Assembly (NCBI RefSeq): GCF_025943985.1
Contig: NZ_JAPCWE010000015.1
Span: 1-64,000, forward strand
Length of the DNA: 64,000 nucleotides
Reading direction: 5' to 3'
Origin: Anaerorudis cellulosivorans
Lineage (GTDB): Bacteria; Bacteroidota; Bacteroidia; Bacteroidales; Dysgonomonadaceae
Positions 28,914 through 62,340 of the stretch are shown one piece after another. The notes under the pieces are model-generated. The model saw only the letters and a list, made by a program, of their open reading frames with translations, was not told where the DNA came from and searched no databases. Made by a program: the position numbers and the translations under genes. Positions within the stretch are counted from its first letter, which is position 1; each line of letters opens with the position of its first letter.

Positions 28914-30116
28914 TTACACTTCCAAATCGATATCGAAGAGTTCGTGCCAGGGAAGTCCCTGTTTGTTGAGTTGATCCATAAACGGATCGGGATTAAATTC
29001 TTCCACATTGAAAACACCCGGTTTTTTCCAGATGCCTTGCAGGAACAGCATGGCACCAATAGTTGCCGGTACACCGGTAGTATAACTTACCCCTTGCGCT
29101 CCCGTTTCGCGGTATGCCGCCTCATGGCTGCAATTGTTGTAGATATAATAGGTGCGTTCTTTGCCATCTTTTATTCCGCGGATACGGCATCCGATGGATG
29201 TTTGACCGGTATAGTTTTCGCCCAGTTCTCCCGGGTTGGGAAGAACCGCTTTTAAAAACTGAATGGGAACGATTTTCTGACCGTTAAATTCCACTTCGTC
29301 TATACGTGCCATTCCGATATTTTGAATTACCCGCAGGTGAGTGAGGTATTCCTCGCTGAACGTCATCCAGAAACGTGCACGTTGCAGGGAAGGAAAGTTT
29401 TTTACCAGCGATTCGAGTTCTTCGTGGTAAATCACATACGATTCTTTGGGCCCGATTTCGGGATAGGTCAGTGGTTTATGAATTTCGTGAGGCTCGGTTT
29501 CGATCCATTGGCCATTTTCGTAATATTTGCCTTTTTGGGTCACTTCCCGAATGTTGATTTCGGGATTGAAGTTTGTGGCAAAAGGTTTATGATGATCGCC
29601 CGCATTGCAATCCACGATGTCGAGATAGTGAATTTCGTCGAAATGGTGTTTTGCTGCATATGCCGTAAACACGTTGGTTACGCCGGGATCGAAACCACAC
29701 CCCAGAATAGCGGTTAAGCCTGCTTCGCGAAATTTATCCTTATAAGCCCATTGCCAGCTGTATTCGAAATGGGCTTCGTCTTTCGGTTCATAATTGGCCG
29801 TGTCCAGGTAATTTACGCCACATTCGAGACACGCATCCATGATGGTCAAATCCTGATAAGGCAATGCAACGTTGATCACTATTTCCGGTTTGAATTCATC
29901 AAACAGTTTTACCAGTTCCGGAACACTGTCGGCATCCACCTGTGCCGTTTGGATGCTGACCCCGGTACGACGTTTAACATCTTCGGCAATATCGTCACAT
30001 TTGCTCTTGGTGCGGCTTGCCAGTATGATTTCCGTAAATACGTCGTTGTTTTGGGCAACTTTGTTGGCAACTACTCTTCCCACGCCTCCGGCACCGATAA
30101 TCAATACTTTCCCCAT
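28914..30116 (-). CDS. Carboxynorspermidine synthase (saccharopine dehydrogenase family)
   Basis: A 400-residue NADPH-dependent enzyme that condenses aspartate semialdehyde with a diamine (putrescine or diaminopropane) to carboxy(nor)spermidine, for spermidine synthesis in many gut Bacteroidota. The Rossmann loop GAGGVG is at residues 8-13; ILASRTKSKCDDI, GCGFDPGVTNVFTAYA and ETGAQGVSYTTGVPA are typical of the family. The partner decarboxylase is not in the window. A TATTTTTG element on the minus strand (30164-30157) may be its -7 site. Lysine-pathway saccharopine dehydrogenase is the alternative but less likely. Confidence 0.88.
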   Translation of the reverse strand: MGKVLIIGAGGVGRVVANKVAQNNDVFTEIILASRTKSKCDDIAEDVKRRTGVSIQTAQVDADSVPELVKLFDEFKPEIVINVALPYQDLTIMDACLECGVNYLDTANYEPKDEAHFEYSWQWAYKDKFREAGLTAILGCGFDPGVTNVFTAYAAKHHFDEIHYLDIVDCNAGDHHKPFATNFNPEINIREVTQKGKYYENGQWIETEPHEIHKPLTYPEIGPKESYVIYHEELESLVKNFPSLQRARFWMTFSEEYLTHLRVIQNIGMARIDEVEFNGQKIVPIQFLKAVLPNPGELGENYTGQTSIGCRIRGIKDGKERTYYIYNNCSHEAAYRETGAQGVSYTTGVPATIGAMLFLQGIWKKPGVFNVEEFNPDPFMDQLNKQGLPWHELFDIDLEV

Positions 30117-30432: not shown

Positions 30433-33168
30433 ATGAACAAAATACGAAATGCTTTTTTTCTCTTGTCACTCTTAATTTTTGTTTCCTGTGAAAAGGAATT
30501 GCTCACCGTTGTGACTTTACCCGGTTCGTCTCAACAATTGCAGTTTGGTGTTGAATATTTAAAAAAATCGCTGCTTGAAAAAGATTACCGTTTTTCGGAA
30601 AAAGCATTCGATTTCGGCCATTTGCCCGATAAAGGGAAAATGGTAATTGTCCTTGAAGAAAGGGATTCCCTTTTGATGAAAGATTTTTGTAAGAAATACG
30701 ACATAACTATTCCCGAAGAGATTGGGAAAGAAGGATTTTATATTACCACTAAAAAAAATGTGACGCTTTTGTGTGGAGGAGACCCATCAGGAGCATTGTA
30801 CGGCTGCTATGAATTGGCCGATTGGTTAAAAGAGAAGAATACTTTTCCGGAAGAAATAAGGGATGTACCCGAAATGGTTTTGAGAGGAGCATGCGTCGGG
30901 CTTCAAAAACCCTATTTGTTGCCGGGAAGAGGAGTATATGAATATCCTTATACCCCCGAAAATTTTCCATGGTTTTATGATAAAAATCTCTGGATCAGGT
31001 ATCTGGATATGTTGGTGGAGAATCGCATGAATACGCTGTATTTGTGGAACGGACATCCGTTTGCCTCGCTGGTGAAGTTGGAAGATTATCCTTTTGCGGT
31101 GGAAGTCGACGAAGAGACCTTTAAGAAAAACGAAGAGATGTTTGCTTTTCTTACAGAAGAAGCCGGCAAAAGGGGGATATGGGTGATTCAGATGTTTTAC
31201 AATATCATAGTCTCTAAACCCTTTGCGGAACATTACGGCATAAAAACGCAGGATAGAAACCGACCGATTACGCCCCTGATATCCGATTATACCCGAAAAT
31301 CGATAAGTGCCTTTATCCGGAAATATCCGAATGTTGGATTACTTGTTTGTCTGGGAGAAGCAATGGCTACTTATGAAGACGATGTCAGATGGTTTACGGA
31401 AACGATTATCCCTGGGGTAAAAGACGGATTGCAAGCTTTAGGGCGTACGGATGAGCCGCCCATTATTCTTCGTGCTCACGATACGGATTGTAAAATGGTG
31501 ATGGAGAAAGCGCTTCCCCTTTACAAGAACTTGTACACCATGCATAAATACAACGGCGAATCGTTGACGACCTATGAACCACGAGGCCCATGGTCTGAGA
31601 TTCATCGTGACCTGAGTGCATTGGGATCGGTACATATCGATAATGTGCATATACTGGCTAATCTGGAACCTTTTCGTTATGGTTCTCCCGATTTTATCCG
31701 GAAAAGTGTACAGGCCATGCATCGTGTTCATGGTGCCAACGGGTTGCATTTATATCCCCAGGCATCGTATTGGGACTGGCCGTATACCGCCGACAAGTTG
31801 CCTAACGGAGAACGGTTGTTGCAGATAGACAGGGATTGGATATGGTATAAAAGCTGGGGTCGTTACGCATGGAAAGCCGATCGTCCGGCGGATGAGGAAG
31901 AAGCATATTGGATAAAGCAATTGGGTGATTTTTACGGCTGTGGGAAGGATGCTGTACATATTCTGGAGGCATATGAACAGACCGGAGAGATTTCTCCGAA
32001 ATTAACCCGTCGTTTTGCTATTACCGAAGGTAATCGCCAGACGTTTCTTTTGGGAATGTTCATGAGTCAATTGGTTAATCCGTATAAATACAAAATCTAT
32101 CCCGGATTTTACGAATCGTGTGGTCCGGAAGGAGAAAAACTGATCGAATATGTGGAAAAAAAATGGAAAAAAGAGCCGCATGTAGGCGAGTTACCATTGG
32201 ATATTGTGGCTCAAGCAAAGGAACATGGCGATAAAGCTGTTACTGCAATTGAGAAAACAGAAAAAAAAGTCACGAAAAACAAGGATGAATTTTCGCGATT
32301 AAAGAATGATGTCCATTGTTATCGTGAATTTGCGTATTTTTTTGGTGCAAAAGTACGGGCAGCGGAACGTGTGCTCGATTATCAATACAGCAACAACATT
32401 GACGATCTGGAAGCAGCTATTCCCTTTATGGAAGAGAGTTTGAAACATTATAGGAAATTGGTTTCGTTGACCAGAGATACCTATCTGTATGCCAACAGCA
32501 TGCAAACGGCTCAACGGCGAATTCCTATTGGCGGAGATGACGGAAAATATAAAACCTGGAAGGAGCTTTTTCCGCTTTACGAACATGAATTCAAAAATTT
32601 TAAAAAGAATCTCCGGATACTGAAAACAGGCGGAAACGAAAAGGGCATCGAAACAATTTCCCCACTTGTTCCTGCTGAAGTAATCTTGATGACACCCAAT
32701 GCAGAATGGAAGCCTTTGGTGAAAGGTCGACACGTGATTCCGGGAATAGACTCGCAATTAAAGGAAATTGCTCCGGAGCTGAAAAACATGAAGGTGTTGA
32801 AGCTTGAAGCCGAATTTCAAAAAAAGAAAGGAACGGTGATCGAATTTGAAACGCACGATTCGGTAAAACTGTTGGTAGGCTATTTCCGTACGGATCAAAA
32901 GGGGTATGCAATGGCGCCTGTATTGGAAACGAATGCTTCGGCCAATCAATATGGTCAAGCCGAACCTGTATTGATGAACGCGTTGGCGATTGAAAACCAA
33001 CCGGCAGTTAATATACATGCCTATTCTTTTCCTGCCGGAAGGCATATGGTCTCACTCGGCAAAGGAATATGTTTGATATTAGGTTTCACGCAATCCGACA
33101 TCGAATTTCGTAATGTAGGTTTAATGGATGATGATTTTACGGCATCCGTCGATTGGTTGTTTTATTAA
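30433..33168 (+). CDS. Glycosidase-like lipoprotein with GH20/GH67-type N-terminal domain
   Basis: A 911-residue lipoprotein (MNKIRNAFFLLSLLIFVSCEK). Residues about 25-150 look like the alpha/beta domain that precedes the barrel in GH20, GH67 and GH84 enzymes (FGVEYLKKSL, GFYITTKKNVTLLCGGDPSGALYGCYELADWL). A TIM-barrel-like part follows (about 160-520; MLVENRMNTLYLWNGHPF, YPNVGLLVCLGEAMATYED, RAHDTDC, NGLHLYPQASYWDWPYT), then a helical region and a C-terminal beta-rich part. I cannot assign a known GH family. It is the first gene of the glycan operon, so it may act on the outermost sugars. No substrate is implied by sequence. Confidence 0.78.
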   Translation: MNKIRNAFFLLSLLIFVSCEKELLTVVTLPGSSQQLQFGVEYLKKSLLEKDYRFSEKAFDFGHLPDKGKMVIVLEERDSLLMKDFCKKYDITIPEEIGKEGFYITTKKNVTLLCGGDPSGALYGCYELADWLKEKNTFPEEIRDVPEMVLRGACVGLQKPYLLPGRGVYEYPYTPENFPWFYDKNLWIRYLDMLVENRMNTLYLWNGHPFASLVKLEDYPFAVEVDEETFKKNEEMFAFLTEEAGKRGIWVIQMFYNIIVSKPFAEHYGIKTQDRNRPITPLISDYTRKSISAFIRKYPNVGLLVCLGEAMATYEDDVRWFTETIIPGVKDGLQALGRTDEPPIILRAHDTDCKMVMEKALPLYKNLYTMHKYNGESLTTYEPRGPWSEIHRDLSALGSVHIDNVHILANLEPFRYGSPDFIRKSVQAMHRVHGANGLHLYPQASYWDWPYTADKLPNGERLLQIDRDWIWYKSWGRYAWKADRPADEEEAYWIKQLGDFYGCGKDAVHILEAYEQTGEISPKLTRRFAITEGNRQTFLLGMFMSQLVNPYKYKIYPGFYESCGPEGEKLIEYVEKKWKKEPHVGELPLDIVAQAKEHGDKAVTAIEKTEKKVTKNKDEFSRLKNDVHCYREFAYFFGAKVRAAERVLDYQYSNNIDDLEAAIPFMEESLKHYRKLVSLTRDTYLYANSMQTAQRRIPIGGDDGKYKTWKELFPLYEHEFKNFKKNLRILKTGGNEKGIETISPLVPAEVILMTPNAEWKPLVKGRHVIPGIDSQLKEIAPELKNMKVLKLEAEFQKKKGTVIEFETHDSVKLLVGYFRTDQKGYAMAPVLETNASANQYGQAEPVLMNALAIENQPAVNIHAYSFPAGRHMVSLGKGICLILGFTQSDIEFRNVGLMDDDFTASVDWLFY

Positions 33169-33197: not shown

Positions 33198-33887
33198 ATG
33201 AAGAAGGTGTTGAACTCCGGTAAATTTGTTCTATTGGGATGTTTTCTTCTTTTCCTATCCTGTAAGTCGACGACTGAACGTACGCCTTCAATTTTGGAGG
33301 TTGTAGACACACGATCTTTTATACCAAAGGAAGAAATCATTACATTTTGCAGTGAATATCAAATAGATTCCCATTCGATATACTGTTGGAAAAATCATTG
33401 GCTTATCTATGCCAACCCCCACGCGATTAATAAGTTGAAAGAAGCAATCGAAGAGCAGTATCCCGATAGCGAAATCAACCTTTACGAAAAGCCCTTTTAT
33501 TGTTTCAGCAGAGAAGAGCATTGCAACGATAAACCGGTGCGAAGCTGGGATCATGTGATTATGACAGCAAATTTGGTAGAAGATGAAGCAATGCAGCAAG
33601 CATATATGGAATACCACCGGACACAATTCGAAAAATGGCCTGAAGTTGCAAAAGGTTTTTGCAACGCCGATTTTCAGCAGGTTCTTGTTTTTCGCAACGG
33701 AAGACAACTTATGCTCGTCATCAGTATTCCCAAAGGAAAAAGTTTGGAAGAATTGAATCCGAAAACGGTTGAGCATAATCCACGTGTGGAGGAATGGAAT
33801 GCGATTATGAACAACTATCAGGAAGGGTTAGCAGATGCTCCTAACGGTAGCACATGGATTACCTTTGAAAAAATAACAGAGGAATAA
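33198..33887 (+). CDS. L-rhamnose mutarotase-like lipoprotein
   Basis: A 229-residue lipoprotein (hydrophobic segment ending FLSCKS). Residues about 115-225 resemble the RhaM/PF05336 ferredoxin-like fold: MEYHRTQFEKWPEV, QQVLVFRNGRQLMLVISIP, and NPRVEEWNAIMNNYQEGL. Residues 36-100 look like a second, weaker half of the same fold. RhaM is a cytoplasmic mutarotase; here the signal implies periplasmic location. The position of the RhaM catalytic His (RRHNPIWPEL in E. coli, from memory) is occupied by Gln (EYHRTQFEKWPEV). Thus it may be a sugar-binding or altered enzyme. It follows the first gene by 29 bases, and GH31 comes 15 bases later. Confidence 0.68.
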   Translation: MKKVLNSGKFVLLGCFLLFLSCKSTTERTPSILEVVDTRSFIPKEEIITFCSEYQIDSHSIYCWKNHWLIYANPHAINKLKEAIEEQYPDSEINLYEKPFYCFSREEHCNDKPVRSWDHVIMTANLVEDEAMQQAYMEYHRTQFEKWPEVAKGFCNADFQQVLVFRNGRQLMLVISIPKGKSLEELNPKTVEHNPRVEEWNAIMNNYQEGLADAPNGSTWITFEKITEE

Positions 33888-36126: not shown

Positions 36127-37191
36127 ATGCATACCTGGAAATCGAATTTTGAAGAAACAAAACAACATTATCTGGATTGGTGGAATCATAAAGGTATCGT
36201 TTTGTCCATGTGGGAACACATTCCGAAAGAGGGTGATCCCTATGAAAATGTTTTACCGCCACCCCCCTGCAAAGATTGGAATCAGTTTTGGTTTGATCCC
36301 GAATGGAGGTCGGCTTATCTGCATCACACCATGTCGAGAAATTCGTATCTTGCGGACATTCTTCCCATTGCCAACACGCAATTGGGCCCCGGTTCTCTTG
36401 CTGCCATTTTGGGATCTGAGCTGGAAGCCAGAGAGGATACCATTTGGATAAGAGAAAAGCCGGATTTTGACGGTCGGATTGTTTTTGATGAAAACAACAA
36501 ATGGTGGAAACTGCACAAAGACCTGTTAAAAGCATGTAAAGCGAAATCGCAAGACAGATATCTTGTCGGTTGTCCCGATTTGGTGGAAGGATTGGATGTG
36601 TTGGGCAGTCTTAAAGGATCGGATAATGTGCTTATGGATCTGGTGATGAATCCGGAGGAGACCCTTCGCCAATTGCATGAGATCAATACGGTTTATTTCA
36701 GGGTTTTCGATGAAATTTACGATATCATCAACATCGATGGGGAAATGGGCTTTTGTTATTTTTCTCTGTGGGCACCGGGGAAAGTGACAAAACTACAAGC
36801 AGACTTGTCCATCATGATTTCGGAAGAAGACTACCGTACTTTTTGTCAACCGTTTTTACGTGAACAATGCAACAACATAGACTACACGCTCTATCATTTG
36901 GATGGGGTTGATGCTATTCGTCATTTGGATGCCGTTTTGGAAATTGAAAATCTCAAGGCAGTTCAGTGGACTCCGGGTTATGGCCAACCTCAGGGAGGAA
37001 ATCCTCAATGGTATCCTTTGTATAAGCGGATTCTTTCAAGCGGAAAATCCGTGATGATAAACTGGGTAACATTGGATGAAATAGCGCCCTTGATCGATAA
37101 TATCGGAAATCAGGGATTACATATCAATGTCGATTTCAAATCGGAAAAAGACATAGAAAAAGCATTAAAAATCGTGGAACGATACCGATGA
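36127..37191 (+). CDS. Divergent uroporphyrinogen decarboxylase-like protein, methyltransferase candidate
   Basis: A 354-residue cytoplasmic protein of the UroD/MtaA/CmuA superfamily by overall layout (WWNHKGIVLSMWEHIP at the N-terminus, TQLGPGSLAAILGSELE, LVGCPDLVEGLDVLG, GEMGFCYFSLWAPGK, LYHLDGVDAIRHLD). Where MtaA has His-x-Cys, this protein has H257-L-D-G (YHLDGVD) without a cysteine, so a classic zinc-thiol site is not evident. It is not heme-pathway UroD. The downstream symporter gene overlaps it by 4 bases, and the corrinoid genes follow; I infer that it may be the substrate-specific methyl- or sugar-handling enzyme of the cassette. I use ATG 36127; the upstream TTG at 36094 lies in the GH31 gene. 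Confidence 0.75.
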   Translation: MHTWKSNFEETKQHYLDWWNHKGIVLSMWEHIPKEGDPYENVLPPPPCKDWNQFWFDPEWRSAYLHHTMSRNSYLADILPIANTQLGPGSLAAILGSELEAREDTIWIREKPDFDGRIVFDENNKWWKLHKDLLKACKAKSQDRYLVGCPDLVEGLDVLGSLKGSDNVLMDLVMNPEETLRQLHEINTVYFRVFDEIYDIINIDGEMGFCYFSLWAPGKVTKLQADLSIMISEEDYRTFCQPFLREQCNNIDYTLYHLDGVDAIRHLDAVLEIENLKAVQWTPGYGQPQGGNPQWYPLYKRILSSGKSVMINWVTLDEIAPLIDNIGNQGLHINVDFKSEKDIEKALKIVERYR

Positions 37192-38771
37192 TTTTATACC
37201 CGAAAAAAGAGATGGAAAACTTAATTCATTTATCTACTGCTGATGTTGTCGTTATTCTTGTTTATGTCGTTGTCCTGATAGGCATTGCCTGCTGGGCAGG
37301 TTTTGCGAAGAAAAACAGGAGCGATGATCTTTTCCTTGCCAATAAATCGTTGGGATGGTTTGCCATCGGACTTACGATGTGGGGGACCAATGTCGGTCCT
37401 TCCATGTTGATAGCCAACGCCAGCAGCGGCTATGAAAGCGGCATTGTGGCAGGAAATTTTTCCTGGTATGCCTTTCCGTTTATATTGATGCTGGCTTTTG
37501 TTTTTGCACCCCGTTATTTGGGTGCAAAAGTAACCACCCTGCCCGAATATATGGGAAAGCGTTTTGGCGAAACCACGCAACGATATATTGCTTGGTATTC
37601 CATTCTGACGATTTTGATATCGTGGTTGGGATTAACCTTGTTTTCCGGAGGGATTTTTATGGCACAGCTTCTGGATTTTCCTTTGTGGGGTTGCATCGTT
37701 ATTCTGGTTACGATTTCGGCATTGTTTGTCGTGATTGGAGGTTTAAAGTCGATTGCCTATACTAATGTCTTTCAAATGCTTCTATTGATCGGCGTATCGG
37801 TTTTACTGGTGGTGATGTCTGTCCACAGGGTAGGGGGAATAGGGGAAGTGATCGAAGCAACACCTTCTTCCTATTGGAAATTGTTTCAACCTTTGAGCGA
37901 CAAGGATTTTCCATGGTTGGCTATTCTTTTGGGATACCCGGTTATGGGCATTTGGTTTTGGTGCACCGATCAGTCGATGGTGCAATCGGTTTTGGGTGCA
38001 AAGAGTTTGGAAGAAGGACAGAAAGGGGCAAATTTTACGGCATGGTTGAAACTGATCGATATTCCTCTTTTTATTCTTCCCGGCATATTGGCCTATCTGC
38101 TTCTTCCCGGTCTGACAAATTCGACCGATGCTTACTTGAGATTGGTAAAAGCGGTTTTTCCTTCCGGATTATTGGGTTTGGTTGTTATTGTGATGATGGC
38201 GGCTCTGATCAGTACCATCAGCTCGGCTCTTAATTCGTTGAGTACGGTTTTTACGATGGATATATACATTAAACGTTACAAGCCTGATGCCCAAAGCAAA
38301 GAAATAAAAAAAACGGGACGGTTGGTGGTGTTGGCAGGCACTTTTCTTTCTATTTTTTTGGCCATTGGAATATCTTTTATTCAGGGATTAAGTTTTTTCA
38401 ATATTTTTCAATCGGTTTTAGGATTTATAGCACCGCCTATGTCAGTAGCTTTCTTGTTTGCCGTATTGTGGAAAAAGACGTCGCGCAAAGCCATAAATCT
38501 TGTGCTTTCGTTGGGGACAGTTTTCAGCTTGGGTATCGGTATTCTGTACTACACTAATCTTATTTTTAATGGTGTCCATTTTTTATATGTCTCTTTCCTT
38601 ATCTTTGTTTTGTTGTTGGTTTTTGTGTGGCTGTTTTCTTTAATTAGCAAGGAATCAGACGAGTCTGTTCCGATATTGAATTACAAACCGGTAAAAGTAC
38701 ATAGGCCGGTAATAATTTCCTGGAGTGTTTTAATTGTTGTAATGATCGGGATGTATATTCTATTTAATTAA
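37188..38771 (+). CDS. Sodium:solute symporter family transporter
   Basis: A 527-residue inner-membrane transporter of the SSS/SGLT family, with 13-14 hydrophobic helices. Typical segments are GLTMWGTNVGPSMLIANASS, YMGKRFGETTQRYIAWYSIL, KSIAYTNVFQMLLLI, STISSALNSLSTVFTMDIY (the conserved Na2-site serine-rich region). It overlaps the UroD-like gene by 4 bases (ATGA); ATG 37212 is an alternative start. No other inner-membrane importer is in the operon, so it is the likely carrier for the product sugar or methylated glycoside. Substrate unproven. Confidence 0.9.
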   Translation: MILYPKKEMENLIHLSTADVVVILVYVVVLIGIACWAGFAKKNRSDDLFLANKSLGWFAIGLTMWGTNVGPSMLIANASSGYESGIVAGNFSWYAFPFILMLAFVFAPRYLGAKVTTLPEYMGKRFGETTQRYIAWYSILTILISWLGLTLFSGGIFMAQLLDFPLWGCIVILVTISALFVVIGGLKSIAYTNVFQMLLLIGVSVLLVVMSVHRVGGIGEVIEATPSSYWKLFQPLSDKDFPWLAILLGYPVMGIWFWCTDQSMVQSVLGAKSLEEGQKGANFTAWLKLIDIPLFILPGILAYLLLPGLTNSTDAYLRLVKAVFPSGLLGLVVIVMMAALISTISSALNSLSTVFTMDIYIKRYKPDAQSKEIKKTGRLVVLAGTFLSIFLAIGISFIQGLSFFNIFQSVLGFIAPPMSVAFLFAVLWKKTSRKAINLVLSLGTVFSLGIGILYYTNLIFNGVHFLYVSFLIFVLLLVFVWLFSLISKESDESVPILNYKPVKVHRPVIISWSVLIVVMIGMYILFN

Positions 38772-38784
38772 GTTGAATGATAAA

Positions 38785-39459
38785 ATGAAATCGGAATTAT
38801 TGAATAAATTGTTTGAATGTGTAGAATTTGGCAAAATCAATCTTGAATCGCCTTACCCACCTCAAATGAAAGGGATGCCGGGTGCTGATGAAATTACCCG
38901 CGAGGCTCTTGAATCGGGGATAACACCTGATGAGATATTAAATAAAGCTCTTATTGCGGCGATGGATAAAGTGGGGCAAAAATTTTCTGAAAAAAAGATT
39001 TTTGTTCCTCAAATGTTATTGTCTGCAAAAGCAATGAATGTATCCATGGAACATTTAAAACCTTATTTTGCAGATGGTTCCGTGAAACGTAAGGGTGTTT
39101 TTATTTTAGGGACGGTCTTTGGCGATTTGCATGACATCGGTAAAAATTTGGTGGGAATGATGATTGAAGGAGCAGGTTGGGAGGTAGTCGATTTAGGGGT
39201 AGACGTAAAAATCGATACATTTGTAAACAAAGTTAAAGAATATCCTGATGCCCCTGTGGGTATTTCTGCATTACTCAGCACAACCATGATCAATATTAAG
39301 CCTGTTATTGAGGCTATTAAAACGGTTTCCCCAAAAACAAGAGTCATTGTTGGAGGTGCGCCCCTTTCTGCAGAGTTTGCTGCATCGATCGGAGCAGATG
39401 CATATGGAAAAAATCCGCAGGAAGGAATAAAATGGTTGGAATCGATATATCGTTCATAA
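38785..39459 (+). CDS. Stand-alone corrinoid (cobalamin-binding) methyl-carrier protein
   Basis: A 224-residue corrinoid protein of the MtaC/MtmC/MtvC type. A helical cap domain (about 5-88, with EILNKALIAAMDKVGQKFSE and VPQMLLSAKAMNVSMEHL) precedes the B12-binding Rossmann domain (about 90-222). The classic DxHxxG motif is D114-L-H116-D-I-G in GDLHDIGKNLV, with H116 as the lower axial ligand; S161 in ISALLSTT and G190-G191 in VGGAPLS complete the set. It carries the methyl group between methyltransferases. ATG 38785 replaces a TTG at 38773. It lies 13 bases after the symporter and 23 bases before the MtaA-type gene. Confidence 0.94.
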   Translation: MKSELLNKLFECVEFGKINLESPYPPQMKGMPGADEITREALESGITPDEILNKALIAAMDKVGQKFSEKKIFVPQMLLSAKAMNVSMEHLKPYFADGSVKRKGVFILGTVFGDLHDIGKNLVGMMIEGAGWEVVDLGVDVKIDTFVNKVKEYPDAPVGISALLSTTMINIKPVIEAIKTVSPKTRVIVGGAPLSAEFAASIGADAYGKNPQEGIKWLESIYRS

Positions 39460-39482
39460 CATTAGGAAAAGAAAAACAGAAA

Positions 39483-40463
39483 ATGAAAAAATGCATGGCT
39501 TTGCCCTTTATCACTCACCCTGGAATCGAATTGATCGGAAAAACGGTAAAGGATGCTGTCTCTGACGGAAAAATTCAATATGAAGCAATGAAAGCAGTAT
39601 CGGATGAATTTGACACCTCAGGCTGTACGGCTATTATGGATTTAACGGTAGAAGCAGAAGCTTTTGGTGCTGAAATCAGTATGCCGCAAGATGAGATACC
39701 TACCGTTAAGGGCAGATTATTGAAAAGTGCTGCTGATGTAGAAAAGTTGTCTGTTCCCGATTTAGGACAAGGTCGTTTAAAAGAATTTTTAAAAGCCAAT
39801 AAATTGGCTGTAGAAAATATTACGGCTAAACCGGTGTTTTCGGGATGTATAGGCCCTTTTTCCCTTGCGGGTAGATTATACAATATGTCTGAAATCATGA
39901 TTTCGATATACACTGAACCCGAAACGATTTTGTTGTTGCTTTCAAAATGTACGGAATTTTTGATCCGGTATTGTACAGAGCTGAAAAAAACAGGTACGGC
40001 CGGTGTCGTTATGGCTGAACCTGCAGCAGGATTGTTATCTGATGAGGATTGTAATATGTATTCGTCAGATTTCGTGAAAAAGATTGTAAATGCTGTGCAG
40101 GATGATGATTTTACAGTTATTCTACACAATTGTGGGAATATGGGTCAGTGTACACATGCCATGATCGCAAGTGGTGCGAATGCTTTGCATTTTGGCAATG
40201 CAGTGAATATGGTGGAAGTTTTACAGGAATGTCCTTCCAATAAAATTGTAATGGGGAATATAGATCCGGTTCGTGTTTTCAAACAATCCGATCCGAATAC
40301 GGTTCAAGAAGTTACTGCACATTTACTGGAACGAACAAAAAATTATGCCAATTTTGTAATTTCAAGTGGTTGCGATATTCCCCCTCATACGCCTCTTGAA
40401 AATATTCGCGCTTTTTTTGAAGCCGTAGCGAGATATAATGACAAAATTATGGGGAGTTGTTGA
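39483..40463 (+). CDS. MtaA/CmuA-type corrinoid methyltransferase
   Basis: A 326-residue methyltransferase of the UroD/MtaA family. Its zinc site is complete: H215-N-C217 (ILHNCGNMG) and C297 (ISSGCDIPPHTP), the H-x-C...C pattern known from MtaA. Other family motifs are CIGPFSLAGRLYNMSE, AEPAAGLLS and ALHFGNAVNM. In methanogens MtaA moves a methyl group from the corrinoid protein to coenzyme M; bacteria usually lack coenzyme M, so here the partner could be tetrahydrofolate or the enzyme may act on the methyl donor. I use ATG 39483; the TTG-like start at 39432 is inside the corrinoid gene. The next gene overlaps by one base (TGATG). Confidence 0.93.
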   Translation: MKKCMALPFITHPGIELIGKTVKDAVSDGKIQYEAMKAVSDEFDTSGCTAIMDLTVEAEAFGAEISMPQDEIPTVKGRLLKSAADVEKLSVPDLGQGRLKEFLKANKLAVENITAKPVFSGCIGPFSLAGRLYNMSEIMISIYTEPETILLLLSKCTEFLIRYCTELKKTGTAGVVMAEPAAGLLSDEDCNMYSSDFVKKIVNAVQDDDFTVILHNCGNMGQCTHAMIASGANALHFGNAVNMVEVLQECPSNKIVMGNIDPVRVFKQSDPNTVQEVTAHLLERTKNYANFVISSGCDIPPHTPLENIRAFFEAVARYNDKIMGSC

Positions 40464-41164
40464 TGACCGGTTCATTTCAGCATTTTCGGTTTTCTTTTCG
40501 TGAAGTGGCCCCAACGATAAATGAGGTTCTCGAGTATGTTCGATCCTCAGGATTGGACAAAGAACATCCGGCAGTAGTATTTACTGACCAGGTTCTTAGA
40601 CAATTGGATAACTTTCAAGGCATCTGTGGGGGATACCACATAAAGAAAAATGAACCGGTATTACCAACAGCAGGGGTAGTAAAAATTGATGATTTTGCCT
40701 TGCATGTCGGAAAGCAAATTTCAAGGTACCTGAAAGAGGCTTCGTATATGGCGCTTTTTCTTTGCACTGCCGGTCCCGATTTTTCCGAAATAGCCGGAAA
40801 ATTGAATCACGAAGGTAATTGGATGGAGGCATACCTTGTGGATGCGATTGGTTCGTTGACTGTAGAAAAGGCGATGAATATCATCTGGAGCAATCTCGAA
40901 GAATCGATGGATAAAGAAGAATTGAAAATCAGCAACCGTTATAGTCCGGGTTACTGCAATTGGGATGTATCGGATCAGAAGATATTATTTTCACTGATCG
41001 GAGATAATCCAACAGGAATTGCTCTCAGTGAAACGTGTCTTATGTCACCGGTAAAATCGGTAAGTGGTATTATCGGAATCGGTAAAAATCTGAAAAGGTA
41101 TAAATATGGATGCAAAATATGCAATAATCAGACATGCATTTATAGAAAGTTAATTCATGAATAA
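40463..41164 (+). CDS. Methionine-synthase activation-domain protein (corrinoid reactivation)
   Basis: A 233-residue protein resembling the vitamin B12-dependent methionine synthase activation domain (PF02965): RYSPGYCNWDVSDQKILFSLIG, GIALSETCLMSPVKSVSGIIGIG carry the conserved R-x-S-P-G-Y and P-x-K-S-V-S-G signatures that bind S-adenosylmethionine. The C-terminus adds GCKICNNQTCIYRK, a C-x2-C-x4-C motif that could bind iron-sulfur. Such stand-alone proteins accompany corrinoid methyltransferases and are thought to return oxidised cob(II)alamin to the active state. It overlaps the upstream gene by 1 base and the downstream glycosidase gene by 8 bases. Confidence 0.9.
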   Translation: MTGSFQHFRFSFREVAPTINEVLEYVRSSGLDKEHPAVVFTDQVLRQLDNFQGICGGYHIKKNEPVLPTAGVVKIDDFALHVGKQISRYLKEASYMALFLCTAGPDFSEIAGKLNHEGNWMEAYLVDAIGSLTVEKAMNIIWSNLEESMDKEELKISNRYSPGYCNWDVSDQKILFSLIGDNPTGIALSETCLMSPVKSVSGIIGIGKNLKRYKYGCKICNNQTCIYRKLIHE

Positions 41165-44100
41165 AGGAAGAATACATTTAAGAGTAGTATTTGCTAGTTG
41201 GTTTTTTACGATTTGCGGTTTTTTGGCTGCACAATCTACAGTTTCTCAATCTAAAATGGAAGAGATCTATGAAGAAATCAAAACACCTTACAAGTACGGT
41301 TTAGTCATTGCTCCATCCGCCAATAATTACAAAGTAGATTGCCCATCGGTGTTTCGTCATGGCGATAAATGGTATATGACATATCTGGTTTACAATGGCA
41401 AAACGGGTAAAGATGGAAGAGGATATGAAACGTGGTTGGCAGAGAGCGATAATTTGTTGCGATGGGAAACCTTGGGTAAAGTTCTTTCTTTTCGGGAAAA
41501 AGGATGGGATAAAAACCAACGAGGCGGTTTCATTGCATTGGAAGAAAATACGTGGGGAGGCAGTTATACGCTTAATACTTTTAAGAATAAATATTGGATG
41601 ACATACATCGGTGGAGACAAACCCGGATACGAGACTGTGCCTTTGAAAATTGGGCTGGCTTTTACGGAAAAGAACCCTTCCCGACCTCATGAATGGAAGA
41701 GTTTGGATAAACCCATCCTTTCACCAGACGATAAAGATGCACAGTGGTTTGAGAAGATTACCCAATACAAGAGCAGCATGTTTTGGGATAAGTCCAACAC
41801 ATTAGGCAAGCCTTTTGTTATGTTTTACAATGCAGCCGGTATTCATCCGGAAACAAAAGTTAAGGCAGAGCGGATAGGTATTGCGTTGTCGGATGACATG
41901 ATACATTGGGAACGCTATAAAAATAATCCTGTTTTTTCTCACGAGGAGGGGATCTCGGGGGATGCCCATATTCAAAAAATAAACGATGTATATGTGATGT
42001 TTTATTTCGGAGCTTTTCACTCATCGAGAAGATATAAGGCATTCAACACCTTTGCCTGTTCATATGATTTGGTCAACTGGACAGACTGGAATGGAGACGA
42101 TCTCATTATCCCTTCAAAAGATTATGATAATCTGTTTGCTCACAAGTCGTCTGTTATAAAACATGATGGGGTAGTTTATCATTTTTATTGTGCGGTGAAC
42201 GAATATGATCAACGGGGTATTGCCTTGGCTGTTTCCAAACCTATGGGAAAATCAAAAGTTCATTTCCCGGAACCTGATCAAAAAGGTAAACGGGAAATTG
42301 TTTCGCTAAACAACGATTGGTACTCTGTTGCTTCCTATGAAAACAGCAATGAATACGATACCTTTGTTGTTGATGGCAATTGGGAAAAAGTGAATATTCC
42401 CCATAATTGGGATGATTATGGAGGGTATCGACAATTGGTACATGGTAACAGGCATGGAAATGCATGGTACAAAAAAACTTTTTTTCTACCCGATTACAAT
42501 GCCGACAAGCGTTTTTTTATTCGTTTTGAGGGAGTGGGAACTTATGCGACTGTTTATATGAACGGCGAAAATCTAGGTCGACATCTAGGTGGAAGAACTA
42601 CTTTTACAGTGAACGTGACAGACGCTATAAAAACAGGAGCAGAAAACGTGATCGCTGTTAAGGTAGAACACCCTTCTTTCATTACCGATATGCCTTGGGT
42701 TTGTGGTGGATGCTCATCTGAATGGGGATTTTCTGAAGGGTCGCAGCCGTTTGGAATATTTAGGCCTGTAACACTGGAAATCACAGACAAAATTCGCATA
42801 GAACCTTTCGGCGTCCATATTTGGAACACCGATACCTCATACTTGCATATCGAAACCGAGATTAAAAATTATGGTAACACACCCGAAACTTTTGAATTGG
42901 TTAGCAAACTAAACGATGATAACGGTATTGCCGTTTTTCGACTTTCAGATACCATTACGCTTCAACCGGGAGAAAGCAGGATAGTAAAGCAAATCAGTCC
43001 GGAGATTAAAAATCCACATTTGTGGTCGAACGACGATCCTTACCTCTATCAATTGGCATCTATGATAAAAAGAAGTGGAAAAACTACCGATGAACTCACC
43101 ACTCCTTATGGGATTCGAACGATCAGTTGGCCGCTCCACGGAAAAGATAAAGATCCAACGTTTAAACTTAATGGGGGAAAGGTGTTTTTAAACGGCATTT
43201 GCGAATATGAGCATCTATTTGGTCAATCGCATGCTTTTTCAAAAGATCAGATTCTTTCGCGGGTGAAACAAATCAAAAGTGCGGGCTTCAATGCATTTAG
43301 AGATGCGCATCAGCCTCATAATTTGTTATATCAGCACTATTGGGATAAAACCGGTATTTTGTGGTGGCCACAATTTTCAGCCCATATTTGGTATGACACT
43401 CCTGATTTTAGAAATAATTTTAAAGCACTGCTTCGTCAATGGATTAAGGAGAGGCGCAATTCTCCTTCCATCATCATGTGGGGATTACAGAACGAAAGTG
43501 TTTTACCCAAAGAATTTGCGGAAGAATGTGTTGAGATTATTCGAGAGATGGATCCCACTGCTTGTAATCAACGGATCATAACCACGTGCAATGGCGGAGA
43601 GGGAACAGACTGGAATGTGCCTCAAAATTGGTCAGGAACCTATGGTGGTGATCCCGACAAGTATGACGATGAACTAAAGAAGCAGTTGTTGAATGGTGAA
43701 TACGGTGCTTGGCGTTCCATCGATTTGCATTCAGAAGGGGATTTTGATCCTCAGAACATATGGAGCGAAGATAACATGTGTTTGTTGTTGGAGAAAAAAA
43801 TCCGTTTGGCTGAATCGGTAAAAGACAGTTGTTGTGGTCACTTTTTATGGCTTTTCAATTCACACGATAATCCCGGCAGGAAACAACCTGATGAAGGGTA
43901 TCGCCTTATCGATAAGATAGGTCCTGTTAATTATAAAGGTCTATTAACTTCCTGGGGAGAACCCGTCGATGCTTATTACCTTTACAAGGCGAACTATATT
44001 TCGGCTAATAAGGATCCAATGGTGTATATTGTATCTCACACATGGACGGATCGGTGGAAAACGCCGGGAGTCAAAAGTGTGATCAGGGTTTTTTCGAATT

Positions 44101-45368
44101 GCGATGAAGTGGAGTTATTTAATGATGTACGATCGGAATCGCTGGGAAGATTGAAAAAAGGTCCGATAGGTACGCATTTTGAGTGGAATAATGTAACTAT
44201 TAAATACAATGTACTTTATGCAGTGGGTTACGTGAATGGAAAACCTATGGCCGAAGATTATATCGTGTTGGATCATTTACCAAAATCTCCCCGTTTCGAC
44301 CAATTTTATCAAGATTTGAAGCCTTTATTGGCACCTCAAGAAGGATATAATTATATTTATCGAATAAATTGTGGAGGAGATCCGTATGTAGATCAATATG
44401 GCCAACGATGGGAGGCCGACAGAGCAAAAGCAGATACCAATGTGTGGAGGTCAACTTCATGGGCTGACGATTACGAAGGGGTCAATCCTTATCAAGCAAG
44501 TCAGCGTTATACAAAAGATCCGATAAAAGGAACGAAGGATTGGGACTTATTTGGCAGTTTTCGCTATGGACGACATAAGTTAGCTTATTATTTTCCGCTT
44601 CCCGATGGGGAGTATCGTGTTGAACTTTATTTTGTGGAACCTTGGTATGGAGCAAGCGGAAACACTGATTGTGAAGGATATCGGATTTTTGATGTTGCAA
44701 TAAATGATTCAGTTTATATTGATGATTTGGATATTTGGGCTGAAGCTGGACATGATGCTGCATTCAAACACGTGGTACAGGTCCGGATTGATGGAGGAGT
44801 GATGAAAATATCTTTTCCTGAGGTAAAAGCGGGCCAGGCTGTAATTTCGGCTATAGCAATCGGTTCCAAAAATCGCGATATTCAACTTCAGATTCCATCT
44901 TCTACAAGCGATTGGTCATGGAAGAACATAAAAAGAGTGGTCAAGACCCCTCTTGATGCATTGCCTGAAGGAAAAGAGACACGGCCTGCCACAATCTATC
45001 GGGCAGAACAAGCCAAAGTAAACGGTCGTAACAAAGAAAAAATAGTTAAGGATCAGACATTTTTTTTCTTTTTGGATAACAAACAGGGAAGCATTGAATG
45101 GGATATTTCGGTAGGTGTTGCCAACAAATATGCACTGAGATTTGATTTTATGAATGTAAATGATTGTCCCATTGACGTAAAAATCAGAGTTATCGATTCG
45201 GACGGCATTGTACATAAAGAGGATACCATTACCTTCCCGGTAGCCAGTGAAAAAAGAAGAATGTTGAGCACAGATACCGGTGGATACATTAATGCAGGAC
45301 ATTATAAGATTCAACTTTCGGCAGAGAATATGAGCGGTTTATGGTTGAGTAATTTAACCGTGCAATGA
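41157..45368 (+). CDS. GH43-like propeller / GH2 / malectin multi-domain glycosidase
   Basis: A 1403-residue exported enzyme with signal peptide (cleavage around FLAAQ). Domains in order: a five-bladed beta-propeller of GH43/GH117/GH130 type (about 40-380, VDCPSVFRHGDKWYMTYLV and FAHKSSVIKHDGVVYHFYCAV); GH2 sugar-binding and sandwich domains (about 395-690); GH2 barrel (about 690-1000) with acid/base E780 in WGLQNES and probable nucleophile E848 in NGEYGAW; a malectin-like domain (about 1063-1240, YRINCGGDPYVDQYG); and a C-terminal carbohydrate-binding-like module (about 1275-1403, TIYRAEQAKVNGRN). Its ATG overlaps the corrinoid-reactivation gene by 8 bases. The catalytic residues of the propeller are not certain. 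Confidence 0.85.
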   Translation: MNKGRIHLRVVFASWFFTICGFLAAQSTVSQSKMEEIYEEIKTPYKYGLVIAPSANNYKVDCPSVFRHGDKWYMTYLVYNGKTGKDGRGYETWLAESDNLLRWETLGKVLSFREKGWDKNQRGGFIALEENTWGGSYTLNTFKNKYWMTYIGGDKPGYETVPLKIGLAFTEKNPSRPHEWKSLDKPILSPDDKDAQWFEKITQYKSSMFWDKSNTLGKPFVMFYNAAGIHPETKVKAERIGIALSDDMIHWERYKNNPVFSHEEGISGDAHIQKINDVYVMFYFGAFHSSRRYKAFNTFACSYDLVNWTDWNGDDLIIPSKDYDNLFAHKSSVIKHDGVVYHFYCAVNEYDQRGIALAVSKPMGKSKVHFPEPDQKGKREIVSLNNDWYSVASYENSNEYDTFVVDGNWEKVNIPHNWDDYGGYRQLVHGNRHGNAWYKKTFFLPDYNADKRFFIRFEGVGTYATVYMNGENLGRHLGGRTTFTVNVTDAIKTGAENVIAVKVEHPSFITDMPWVCGGCSSEWGFSEGSQPFGIFRPVTLEITDKIRIEPFGVHIWNTDTSYLHIETEIKNYGNTPETFELVSKLNDDNGIAVFRLSDTITLQPGESRIVKQISPEIKNPHLWSNDDPYLYQLASMIKRSGKTTDELTTPYGIRTISWPLHGKDKDPTFKLNGGKVFLNGICEYEHLFGQSHAFSKDQILSRVKQIKSAGFNAFRDAHQPHNLLYQHYWDKTGILWWPQFSAHIWYDTPDFRNNFKALLRQWIKERRNSPSIIMWGLQNESVLPKEFAEECVEIIREMDPTACNQRIITTCNGGEGTDWNVPQNWSGTYGGDPDKYDDELKKQLLNGEYGAWRSIDLHSEGDFDPQNIWSEDNMCLLLEKKIRLAESVKDSCCGHFLWLFNSHDNPGRKQPDEGYRLIDKIGPVNYKGLLTSWGEPVDAYYLYKANYISANKDPMVYIVSHTWTDRWKTPGVKSVIRVFSNCDEVELFNDVRSESLGRLKKGPIGTHFEWNNVTIKYNVLYAVGYVNGKPMAEDYIVLDHLPKSPRFDQFYQDLKPLLAPQEGYNYIYRINCGGDPYVDQYGQRWEADRAKADTNVWRSTSWADDYEGVNPYQASQRYTKDPIKGTKDWDLFGSFRYGRHKLAYYFPLPDGEYRVELYFVEPWYGASGNTDCEGYRIFDVAINDSVYIDDLDIWAEAGHDAAFKHVVQVRIDGGVMKISFPEVKAGQAVISAIAIGSKNRDIQLQIPSSTSDWSWKNIKRVVKTPLDALPEGKETRPATIYRAEQAKVNGRNKEKIVKDQTFFFFLDNKQGSIEWDISVGVANKYALRFDFMNVNDCPIDVKIRVIDSDGIVHKEDTITFPVASEKRRMLSTDTGGYINAGHYKIQLSAENMSGLWLSNLTVQ

Positions 45369-45372
45369 ATAA

Positions 45373-48660
<3,288 letters not shown>

Positions 48661-48738
48661 CCTGGTTTATGATATCGTGGTTTTTTTGGGTACAAAATTG
48701 CGTATAGGGCGTCTTTTTTATAATAAAAAGGTGAAAAG

Positions 48739-51627
48739 ATGAAACGAAAAAACCTTAGGTGTAAAAACATATTTGTTATTTTGTTCGGTGTTATTTTTGG
48801 TGTAAAAGCTCAACAAGAGTTGATACCTGCTACCGTTGTCCATTATCTTTCAGGAAAAGGTGCCGATGATTCGGTTTATTGGGATTTTTATTGTACAGAG
48901 GGATTAAATTCCGGTAAATGGACGAAAATTAAAGTTCCTTCTTGTTGGGAAACGCAAGGTTTTGGCCAATTTCAGTATGGTATCGAATTTTACGGGAAAC
49001 CCTTTCCCGAAGGTATTGCCAAAGAAGAAGGTCTGTATAAATATGAATTTGATGTACCCGATTCCTGGAGAAATCATGCGATATGTTTAGTATTTGATGG
49101 ATCCATGACAGATACTGAAGTCAGAATGAATGGATTGAAAGCAGGTGAAAAACACCAAGGTGGGTTTTATCGGTTTTCTTACGACATAACAGATCTTTTG
49201 AAGTTCGGAAAGAAGAATCTATTAGAGGTTACCGTAAAAAAAGAATCGGAGAATGCAAGTGTCAATTTAGCAGAACGGCGAGCCGATTATTGGAATTTTG
49301 GTGGCATCTTCCGACCGGTATTTTTGGAAATAAAACCGGTGATCCATATTGACAGGGTTACTATTGATGCTAAGGCTGACGGTTCATTTTACGCCTCTTG
49401 TTATTTAGGAAGGGCTGCTTCGGAAAATTTAAGTGTAAAGACGGAAATTCTTGATCGAAGAGATAATAAAGTAGCAGAGGGTACCTTTCCCATAAAAAAA
49501 GGAAGCAACTGGACGATGATTTCCCTGAATGCGGGTTACCCCGATTTATGGACCGCTGAAACGCCAAATCTGTATAACGCGAAATTTACGTTGAGTAAAG
49601 AAAACAGCAAAGCGGTTCACCAGATCACCGAAAAATTCGGATTCAGAACAATTGAGGTTAGGGAAAGCGATGGTCTTTACATCAACAGTGTTAGGGTAAA
49701 TATCAGAGGGGTAAATCGGCATAGTTTCCGTCCGGAAACAGGGCGTACCTTAGATCGGTCAAAAAATTACGAGGATGTTCATTTGATTAAGGAGATGAAC
49801 ATGAACGCCGTTCGCTTGTCGCATTATCCTCCCGATCCCGATTTTTTGGAAGCCTGTGACGAGTTGGGCCTCTATGTGATGAATGAACTGGGCGGATGGC
49901 ACGGAAAATACGATACACCTACAGGGAAAAAGCTGGTGAAGGAAATGGTTACGCGCGATGTGAATCATCCTTCGATTATTTGGTGGAGCAACGGGAATGA
50001 GAAAGGATGGAATACCGCTCTAGATGAGGAATTTCATCGCTGGGATCTGCAAAAACGACCTGTCCTTCATCCCCAAGGGAATTTTGGAGGATTCGAAACT
50101 ATGCATTACCGTTCGTATGGAGAAACGCAGGCATATATGCGTTTGCCGCAAATTTTTATGCCTACTGAATTTCTACATGGATTATATGATGGGGGGTTGG
50201 GTGCCGGTTTGTATGATTATTGGGAAATCATGCGCACGCACCCTCGTTGCGCCGGTGGTTTTTTATGGGTTTTTGCTGACGAAGGCGTAAAAAGGGTTGA
50301 CTTGGATGGGTGTATCGATACGCGCGGCAATTACGGGGCCGATGGCATAGTGGGGCCTCATCACGAAAGAGAGGGGAGTTTTTACGCCATAAAAGAAATA
50401 TGGTCGCCCGTGCAGATCATGAACGATAAAATCGATCGGGATTTTGATGGTAATTTTATCGTTGAAAACCGCTATGATTTTCTTTCGCTCAATACTTGTT
50501 TTTTTACGTGGGAACAGGTTTCGTTTCCTTCGTCATTAAGTTTGGATGGGAAGAAAAAGATACTGAAAAAAGGAGAAGTGAAAGGAAGCGACATCGCTCC
50601 GCATAAAAAAGGCATCTTGCATATCGATATGCCTGCTTTTTCGGATGATGTGAACGGTTTATTTCTGACGGCAAAAGATGTTTATGGACATGAGTTGTGG
50701 CGCTGGAGTTGGAAAATCGATGAAAAAAATGTTTATAAGAAAAACAACGATGAAAAGAAAGCTGCAGTGAAAAAAAATGCACCCACTTATGAAGAAGATG
50801 CCGATCACATAAAAGTGAAGGTAGGTAATAAAAGTTATGTTTATGACAAAAAAGACGGCTTCCTGAAGCATGTGACGGTAAATGACCGGAAAATATCTTT
50901 TGGAAATGGGCCTCGATTTGTTGCAGCCCGGAGAGCGGATAGGTCGTTGGATCAGTTTTTTAACCATGATGATCCCGATGCCAAGAAGCTGGATAGAACC
51001 TATAAGGATTTTGTCGATTTGGCCGTTGTGGACAGCATATTTATTCGAGAAGACGAAAATCGGTTGACGGTGAACGTTGTTTACAAATTGGGCAACATGC
51101 AGAGATCGACATGGACGGTACATCCGGATGGCTTACTGGAATTGACATATGTTTATCGTTTTGATGCGGTGGTTGATTTGATGGGTATTCGATTCGATTA
51201 CCCTGAAGACAAGGTGATCGGAAAGCGTTGGCTGGGTGACGGTCCCTATAGAGTTTGGCAGAACAGGATTCATGGTGTAACCTATGATGTTTGGGAAAAT
51301 GAATATGATGATCCAATGCCAGGTGAGACGTTCATCTATCCCGAATTTAAGGGTTATTTTTCGAATTGTTCCTGGATGAACATCGAAACACAGGAGGGTT
51401 TGATATCGATTGTTAATGAAACTCCAAATACCTATATTGGAATTTATCAACCTCGCGATGGAAGAGATGCCCTATTGTACACTTTACCCGAAAGTGGTAT
51501 TTCCGTTATGGATGTGATACCGCCAGTTAGAAATAAAGTCAATGCAACCGACTTGATAGGACCTTCTTCTCAGCCTCCCTGGGTGAAAGGTGAAAAAAGA
51601 GGAAAACTTATTTTTCGTTTCCAATAA
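48739..51627 (+). CDS. GH2 family glycosidase with C-terminal mutarotase-like domain
   Basis: A 962-residue exported GH2 enzyme (signal peptide ending GVKAQ). Sugar-binding domain about 40-200, immunoglobulin-like domain about 205-300, barrel about 305-590. Acid/base is E421 in WWSNGNEKGW; the nucleophile is probably E477 in MPTEFLHGL. The barrel motif GVNRHSFRPE resembles the Lac[10 protein letters not shown], but the substrate-site HxH is changed. The C-terminal 270 residues are beta-sandwich-like (GPRFVAARRADRSLDQFF, GPYRVWQNRIHG). It could be a galactosidase, glucuronidase or L-sugar glycosidase; I cannot tell. Lies 78 bases after the LacZ-type gene. Confidence 0.88.
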   Translation: MKRKNLRCKNIFVILFGVIFGVKAQQELIPATVVHYLSGKGADDSVYWDFYCTEGLNSGKWTKIKVPSCWETQGFGQFQYGIEFYGKPFPEGIAKEEGLYKYEFDVPDSWRNHAICLVFDGSMTDTEVRMNGLKAGEKHQGGFYRFSYDITDLLKFGKKNLLEVTVKKESENASVNLAERRADYWNFGGIFRPVFLEIKPVIHIDRVTIDAKADGSFYASCYLGRAASENLSVKTEILDRRDNKVAEGTFPIKKGSNWTMISLNAGYPDLWTAETPNLYNAKFTLSKENSKAVHQITEKFGFRTIEVRESDGLYINSVRVNIRGVNRHSFRPETGRTLDRSKNYEDVHLIKEMNMNAVRLSHYPPDPDFLEACDELGLYVMNELGGWHGKYDTPTGKKLVKEMVTRDVNHPSIIWWSNGNEKGWNTALDEEFHRWDLQKRPVLHPQGNFGGFETMHYRSYGETQAYMRLPQIFMPTEFLHGLYDGGLGAGLYDYWEIMRTHPRCAGGFLWVFADEGVKRVDLDGCIDTRGNYGADGIVGPHHEREGSFYAIKEIWSPVQIMNDKIDRDFDGNFIVENRYDFLSLNTCFFTWEQVSFPSSLSLDGKKKILKKGEVKGSDIAPHKKGILHIDMPAFSDDVNGLFLTAKDVYGHELWRWSWKIDEKNVYKKNNDEKKAAVKKNAPTYEEDADHIKVKVGNKSYVYDKKDGFLKHVTVNDRKISFGNGPRFVAARRADRSLDQFFNHDDPDAKKLDRTYKDFVDLAVVDSIFIREDENRLTVNVVYKLGNMQRSTWTVHPDGLLELTYVYRFDAVVDLMGIRFDYPEDKVIGKRWLGDGPYRVWQNRIHGVTYDVWENEYDDPMPGETFIYPEFKGYFSNCSWMNIETQEGLISIVNETPNTYIGIYQPRDGRDALLYTLPESGISVMDVIPPVRNKVNATDLIGPSSQPPWVKGEKRGKLIFRFQ

Positions 51628-51640
51628 ATGACGATATGAT

Positions 51641-55000: not shown

Positions 55001-55019
55001 CGAGTAAAATATAATGTTT

Positions 55020-55026
55020 AGGAGGG
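55020..55026 (+). promoter_or_regulatory. Second Shine-Dalgarno-like site next to a start codon
   Basis: AGGAGGG ends one base before ATG 55028. It repeats the unusual spacing seen before the GH31 gene at 33903, in the same operon. Confidence 0.4.
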
Positions 55027-55027
55027 T

Positions 55028-58755: not shown

Positions 58756-58759
58756 AAAT

Positions 58760-62337: not shown

Positions 62338-62340
62338 AAG

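Follow-up and report, generated by a model that had tools for sequence, protein, structure and literature searches.

A 64,000-nucleotide stretch of the genome of Anaerorudis cellulosivorans (contig NZ_JAPCWE010000015.1, our C15; hereafter, the window) probably encodes a corrinoid-dependent O-demethylase acting on a methyl-ether sugar of side chain A of rhamnogalacturonan-II (RG-II), as judged from its sequence. The genome, which belongs to the order Bacteroidales, is 2.8 Mb in size and 98% complete, and its nearest named relatives are the Bacteroidales metagenome-assembled genomes (MAGs) UBA4179 and UBA1410. The predicted donor-side enzyme, a UroD-like protein designated here UroDx, is encoded within a run of genes on the plus strand that spans positions 30433 to at least 63360 in the following order:

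30433-33168, strand +: GH138 alpha-D-galacturonidase (RG-II chain A), exported, lipoprotein-like; NCBIfam NF049878, 1487 bits, cut-off 1300
33198-33887, strand +: rhaM-type sugar mutarotase with lipoprotein-like N-terminus; PF05336
33903-36116, strand +: GH31, relative of YicI-type alpha-xylosidases, without signal peptide; PF01055, KADFGE motif
36127-37191, strand +: UroDx, proposed methyl-sugar:corrinoid O-demethylase (MT1); AlphaFold model, H257-x-D259, fusions elsewhere
37188-38771, strand +: SSF Na+/solute symporter, proposed importer of a methyl-sugar disaccharide; PF00474
38785-39459, strand +: corrinoid (methyl-carrier) protein, ATG start, DLHDIG matching DxHxxG; PF02607 (B12-binding_2) and PF02310 (B12-binding), MtgC/MtbC-like
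39483-40463, strand +: MtaA-like UroD-family protein, ATG start, proposed methylcorrinoid:thiol (homocysteine) methyltransferase (MT2); PF01208 (E=1e-56), LHNCG ... SGCD
about 40463-41164, strand +: stand-alone MetH-type activation domain, predicted to perform S-adenosylmethionine (SAM)-dependent reductive corrinoid reactivation; PF02965 above cut-off, RYSPGY SAM motif
41157-45368, strand +: GH137-GH2 beta-L-arabinofuranosidase/beta-glucuronidase of RG-II; NF049877, 2476 bits, cut-off 1800
45385-61381, strand +: remaining RG-II locus, comprising LacZ-like GH2, GH2, GH106, SASA esterase, DUF5703 protein and GH2; Pfam/NCBIfam
61405-63363, strand +: aldo-keto reductase and Zn-alcohol dehydrogenase, closing the run

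The genes are closely packed. The stop codon of GH31 is 10 bp from UroDx, UroDx and the symporter gene overlap by 4 bp, gaps of 13 bp and 23 bp precede the corrinoid and MtaA-like genes, respectively, and overlaps of 1 base and 8 bp link the MtaA-like gene to the activator gene and the latter to GH137-GH2. The symporter start is more likely near 37212 than at 37188, since the orthologues are 519 aa long. A first-pass annotation of the window had described this gene set as a single tight run; all of its genes are present on the plus strand and every junction it listed is correct. It had also named the flanking genes, rightly in the case of GH31, while the supposed GH43-like/GH2 chimera proved to be GH137-GH2 of the RG-II family NF049877. 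A scan for promoters and terminators returned sites no more numerous than in shuffled sequences.

In the proposed pathway, periplasmic RG-II glycosidases, including GH141, would free the disaccharide 2-O-methyl-D-xylose-alpha-1,3-L-fucose, which would be taken up by the Na+ symporter and cleaved by GH31 in the cytosol. UroDx would then O-demethylate the methyl sugar to xylose, with cob(I)alamin of the corrinoid protein as the methyl acceptor, and the MtaA-like His-Cys-Cys enzyme would pass the methyl group to a thiol, most likely homocysteine, to give methionine. Oxidised cobalt could be restored by the MetH-type activation domain with SAM. In Prevotella-type relatives, both methyl transfers would be performed by one polypeptide, in which UroDx is joined to a homocysteine methyltransferase (Hcy) domain and a corrinoid domain. 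This succession of GH141 outside the cell, symporter, cytosolic GH31 and UroDx is the simplest route, since GH31 has no export signal, GH138 and the rhaM-type mutarotase are exported, and GH141 is present in the genome. The rhaM-type mutarotase may equilibrate the anomers of the released disaccharide ending in L-fucose. The pathway is built on the observed gene set, gene order, RG-II context, co-occurrence, zinc-site residues and fusions, and from these we infer which compound is transported, whether cleavage precedes demethylation, which sugar is demethylated and what accepts the methyl group. A methyl-ether sugar as the methyl donor, already suggested in the first-pass annotation, finds support in the context, co-occurrence, zinc-site residues and fusions, and the activity itself is predicted from these.

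UroDx had no match in Pfam and matched none of the MtaB, MttB and MtmB families; a sequence profile search against PDB gave no match, and a profile-profile comparison of the two UroD-like proteins was unsuccessful, the alignments being shallow. Since these sequence and profile searches gave nothing, the UroD nature of UroDx rests on its predicted structure: the AlphaFold model (pLDDT 95) has the UroD fold, with Z-scores of 20 to HemE and 19.7 to MtaA (4ay7), followed by MetE with 12-13. In the UroD superfamily, the zinc site of S-methyltransferases is His-Cys-Cys, whereas O-methyltransferases have lost one or both of its cysteines or carry carboxylates in their place (Kountz and Balskus, PMC10418091). 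When five UroD families from these loci were aligned, the H-L-D-G of UroDx corresponded to the H-x-C-G of the others and the second cysteine was missing; H257 and D259 were invariant in 46 of 46 sequences. The MtaA-like protein retains the His-Cys-Cys site, with invariant HxC...C. Since these residues fit the published pattern, UroDx would act on a methyl ether and the MtaA-like protein on a thiol, and we propose UroDx, not the MtaA-like protein, as the donor-side enzyme.

Gene fusions point in the same direction. Among the relatives of UroDx, nine loci of Bacteroides and Phocaeicola, including Phocaeicola vulgatus ATCC 8482 (L085, 600 aa), encode UroDx and the corrinoid domain as a single protein, and 19 Prevotella-type loci encode a UroDx-Hcy-corrinoid protein about 950 aa long, the activation domain having a gene of its own nearby. 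The Hcy domain of the latter matches PF02574 (4e-81) and has the zinc cysteines (GINC, GGCCGT), while no folate-binding domain PF00809 was found in this protein, UroDx filling approximately residues 1-354. As predicted from its domains, the Prevotella-type protein is thus a methionine synthase with UroDx in the place of the folate domain. In loci L045 and L046, a stand-alone homocysteine methyltransferase is encoded between the symporter and corrinoid genes. Taken together, the fusions and these two clusters identify UroDx as the likely donor-side partner of the corrinoid protein and homocysteine as the likeliest acceptor. In some loci with a UroDx fusion (L080, L096 and L107), it is preceded by homologues (62-65%) of the two oxidoreductase genes that close the run in the window.

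Homocysteine is probably the acceptor in the window genome as well. There, the MtaA-like protein, a relative of MtbA/MtaA and 4ay7, is the only PF01208 match. Tetrahydrofolate as the acceptor was rejected, as no PF00809 gene occurs between 30433 and 63360 and the thiol-type MtaA-like protein is present instead. The reactivator is a SAM-binding PF02965 domain of the MetH type, with RYSPGY invariant in 7 of 7 sequences, and not an ATP-dependent RACE/RamA protein. The role of the MtaA-like protein is less certain, because in many Prevotella-type genomes MtaA coexists with the Hcy-containing triple fusion and may not be the homocysteine enzyme; a simple exchange of MtaA for a homocysteine enzyme between lineages is for this reason only partly supported. 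It is possible, if rather doubtful, that MtaA also works on the donor side, as a second methyltransferase with, for instance, a methyl thioether or another methyl sugar as its substrate, and that the methylation of homocysteine falls to MetH or a separate Hcy domain; MtaA-like proteins elsewhere have been proposed to demethylate methylated sulfur and selenium compounds (PMC10418091). Against this, no homocysteine methyltransferase other than the full-length MetH was found in the window genome, and MtaA was not found in the L045 and L046 genomes, which have the separate Hcy enzyme in the cluster.

The GH138 and GH137-GH2 genes flank the cassette and both exceed their curated cut-offs, which identifies the locus as an RG-II locus. 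A weak match of the first gene to GH67N had made 4-O-methyl-glucuronate a candidate substrate, which was dropped once this gene was recognised as GH138. The closest relatives of the window GH31 are alpha-xylosidases, with 1109 bits to PDB 5f7c, which we take to be BT_0339 of Bacteroides thetaiotaomicron, and 385 bits to YicI. A hydrophobic or exported N-terminus was seen in none of 58 GH31 orthologues, in 12 of 13 GH138 and in 19 of 20 rhaM proteins, and we propose that GH31 is a cytosolic alpha-(2-O-methyl)xylosidase. GH141 is encoded on another contig of the window genome; GH141 BT1002 of B. thetaiotaomicron is reported to liberate 2-O-methyl-D-xylose-alpha-1,3-L-fucose (PMC10154630).

RG-II contains two methyl-ether sugars, 2-O-methyl-xylose in side chain A and 2-O-methyl-fucose in side chain B (PMC12168206, PMC12282258). 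The same chemistry could thus be directed at 2-O-methyl-L-fucose, given that the cluster sits in an RG-II locus; this is unlikely, as the conserved partners are the alpha-xylosidase-like GH31 and GH141, which favour 2-O-methyl-D-xylose, and not the 2-O-methyl-fucosidase family GH139. A better candidate for the second methyl donor is a separate pair of UroD-family proteins (362 and 374 aa, both H-x-C) that adjoins GH138 and an MFS transporter in some genomes (L060 539-2751, also L034, L061 and L062) and possibly serves 2-O-methyl-fucose. Of the sugars named as examples in the first-pass annotation, 2-O-methyl-xylose is accordingly the one favoured by GH31 and GH141, 2-O-methyl-fucose is less favoured, and 3-O-methyl-rhamnose is without support.

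The distribution of the cassette was analyzed in 84,980 species genomes, which yielded 262 UroDx relatives, of which we read the 80 best; the 52 loci in which the sequence extends for 6 kb or more on each side of UroDx are referred to as full loci. Three congeners and three other genera of the family share the gene order of the window, GH31-UroDx-SSF-corrinoid-MtaA-activator, always amid RG-II enzymes, and this order recurs across many genera, so that it is not due to chance. The 52 full loci contained genes for the symporter in 47 cases, GH31 in 45, the corrinoid protein in 40, the activator in 33, MtaA in 30, adjacent GH141 in 24 and a homocysteine methyltransferase domain in 15. GH31 is immediately upstream of UroDx in 48 of the 67 loci with room for it; where it was mostly not beside UroDx (mainly Prevotella-type genomes and some truncated contigs), 17 of 19 genomes encode the same GH31 with at least 59% identity. 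In an even sample of 295 Bacteroidales genomes, UroDx was found in seven genomes from six families, all within the 12 that encode GH138 (Fisher p=2.2e-11). This nesting and the conservation of the locus indicate that the cassette belongs to RG-II degradation and not to the metabolism of methanol, amines or aromatic compounds. The first-pass annotation had named the location of such cassettes beside genes of the latter kind, and not beside sugar genes, as evidence against a methyl-sugar donor; RG-II glycosidases adjoin them in many genera.

It is accordingly improbable that the cassette is a passenger in a glycan locus that demethylates methanol, methylamines or aromatic ethers. Pectin methyl esters would yield methanol, the corresponding proteins of B. 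thetaiotaomicron bear a methylamine/trimethylamine label (PMC8941943), and MtaB genes occur in clusters L045 and L058, but MtaB, where present, is a separate extra gene, UroDx had no match to the MtaB, MttB or MtmB families, and its linkage to GH31 and a sugar-type Na+ symporter is tight. The MtaB methanol:corrinoid methyltransferase (PF12176, 533 bits; L045 6250-7626, also L058) is encoded inside the RG-II cluster near GH31-UroDx and could charge the same corrinoid protein with the methyl groups of methanol derived from pectin methyl esters.

Besides the coexistence of MtaA with the triple fusion, several points weigh against a sugar O-demethylase. The equivalence of H-x-D and H-x-C, obtained by aligning very divergent proteins, is good but not final evidence. 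About a quarter of the full loci have no corrinoid gene beside UroDx, and in L056 and L057, from two related MAGs, the corrinoid matches were weak only. In favour of the system, of the genomes with no corrinoid gene seen beside UroDx or with a short contig, 19 of 21 encode a stand-alone corrinoid protein, 44-76% identical; its gene mostly adjoins a homocysteine methyltransferase, an MtaA-like or other UroD-family protein, a CobW GTPase or an activation protein, which looks like a shared hub supplied by several donor-side enzymes. Such unlinked clusters, with a corrinoid protein, homocysteine methyltransferase or UroD-family protein, CobW GTPase and activation protein, were observed in L108, L110, L112 and L115-L120, and one UroD-family protein or homocysteine methyltransferase among them carries a fused thioredoxin domain. 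That UroDx is not a methyltransferase at all, but uses a UroD barrel in another role, such as that of a sugar isomerase-like or a binding protein, would agree with its low identity to solved UroD proteins (only about 10% to any of them) and the absence of a Pfam family and is very improbable given its direct fusion to corrinoid and homocysteine methyltransferase domains in 28 loci.

The main unexplained point concerns B. thetaiotaomicron, for which one uncut RG-II linkage and four unused sugars have been reported. The uncut linkage is presumably the methyl-xylose-fucose bond. Published annotations of this bacterium give GH141 as BT_0338 and the alpha-xylosidase as BT_0339, while BT_0340, BT_0342 and BT_0343 are the genes labelled as methylamine/trimethylamine methyltransferase corrinoid proteins (PMC8941943). 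This arrangement of BT_0338-0343 agrees with that of the genes in P. vulgatus, and in co-culture BT_0338 rises together with the RG-II genes BT_0984 and BT_1002 (PMC8264420). Judging from these annotations, B. thetaiotaomicron probably has the same system under a misleading label; missing induction or B12 in that work is a possible reason for the uncut linkage.

Several known systems share parts of this architecture. The methoxy-aromatic O-demethylases (OdmB/VdmB of Acetobacterium, MtoB-type) likewise combine a UroD-family donor enzyme with a non-Cys zinc site, a small corrinoid protein and a reactivator, but the cassette has neither a PF00809 methyltransferase nor an ATP-dependent RACE protein and is accompanied by the glycosidases and the sugar-type symporter of an RG-II locus. 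With MetH it shares homocysteine, B12 and activation domains, the Prevotella-type fusion having Hcy and B12 domains in one chain and a separate activation protein; it differs in having UroDx for the folate domain, with a sugar methyl ether as the predicted donor. The chloromethane methyltransferase CmuA has a UroD domain fused to a corrinoid domain, as in the UroDx fusions, but acts on another substrate and its methyl group reaches folate via CmuB. In MtgB/MtgC/MtgD of marine bacteria, a corrinoid protein likewise serves both to demethylate a compound from the environment and to make methionine, but the donor is glycine betaine, the enzyme belongs to pfam06253, and the system is aerobic and without glycan context (PMC12478193). 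The mlp gene clusters also contain an MtaA-like His-Cys-Cys protein, a corrinoid protein and a reactivator without a folate methyltransferase; they differ in having several MtaA-like proteins, a RACE reactivator, a sulfur/selenium context and a mostly Firmicutes distribution (PMC10418091). The P450 route for 6-O-methyl-D-galactose in marine Bacteroidota also O-demethylates a sugar that comes from a polysaccharide, but it requires O2, releases formaldehyde and uses unrelated proteins (PMC10033563).

Our literature search found no description of O2-independent, B12-dependent removal of O-methyl groups from sugars, and the system is predicted to be a variant of corrinoid O-demethylase/methionine synthase not previously described. 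RG-II-digesting bacteria of gut and sediment type appear to carry such an O2-free B12 system for demethylating a rare O-methyl sugar. We give about even chances to the fuller proposal, namely that there is a family of methionine synthases with a sugar-ether demethylase instead of the folate module (UroDx-Hcy-B12 in the Prevotella type, split with MtaA in the window) and that GH31 is the missing alpha-(2-O-methyl)xylosidase for the uncut RG-II linkage. If true, this would explain the use of a methylated RG-II sugar by anaerobic gut and sediment Bacteroidota, provide a candidate enzyme for that linkage and a function for the B12-binding proteins bearing the methylamine label in B. thetaiotaomicron, and tie methionine supply to dietary pectin and vitamin B12, with pectin methyl ethers converted to methionine directly.

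In several loci (among them L060 11069-12130, L063 and L066), the genes for UroDx and the symporter are separated by one for a Gfo/Idh/MocA oxidoreductase. In one genome of a Bacteroides sample, UroDx is split over two frames (G194:C1:1833323-1834382), perhaps representing a decaying copy. Contigs labelled Sedimentisphaerales and Phycisphaerae (Planctomycetota), those of L070 and L078, contain GH141 and UroDx, with GH31 between them in L070, which suggests inter-phylum transfer or MAG contamination. In the window, the gene run is preceded on the opposite strand (28914-30116, strand -) by an unrelated gene for a carboxynorspermidine synthase-like saccharopine dehydrogenase, and beyond the two closing oxidoreductase genes are those for an amidohydrolase, a DHDPS-family protein, a second SSF symporter and a hybrid two-component sensor.

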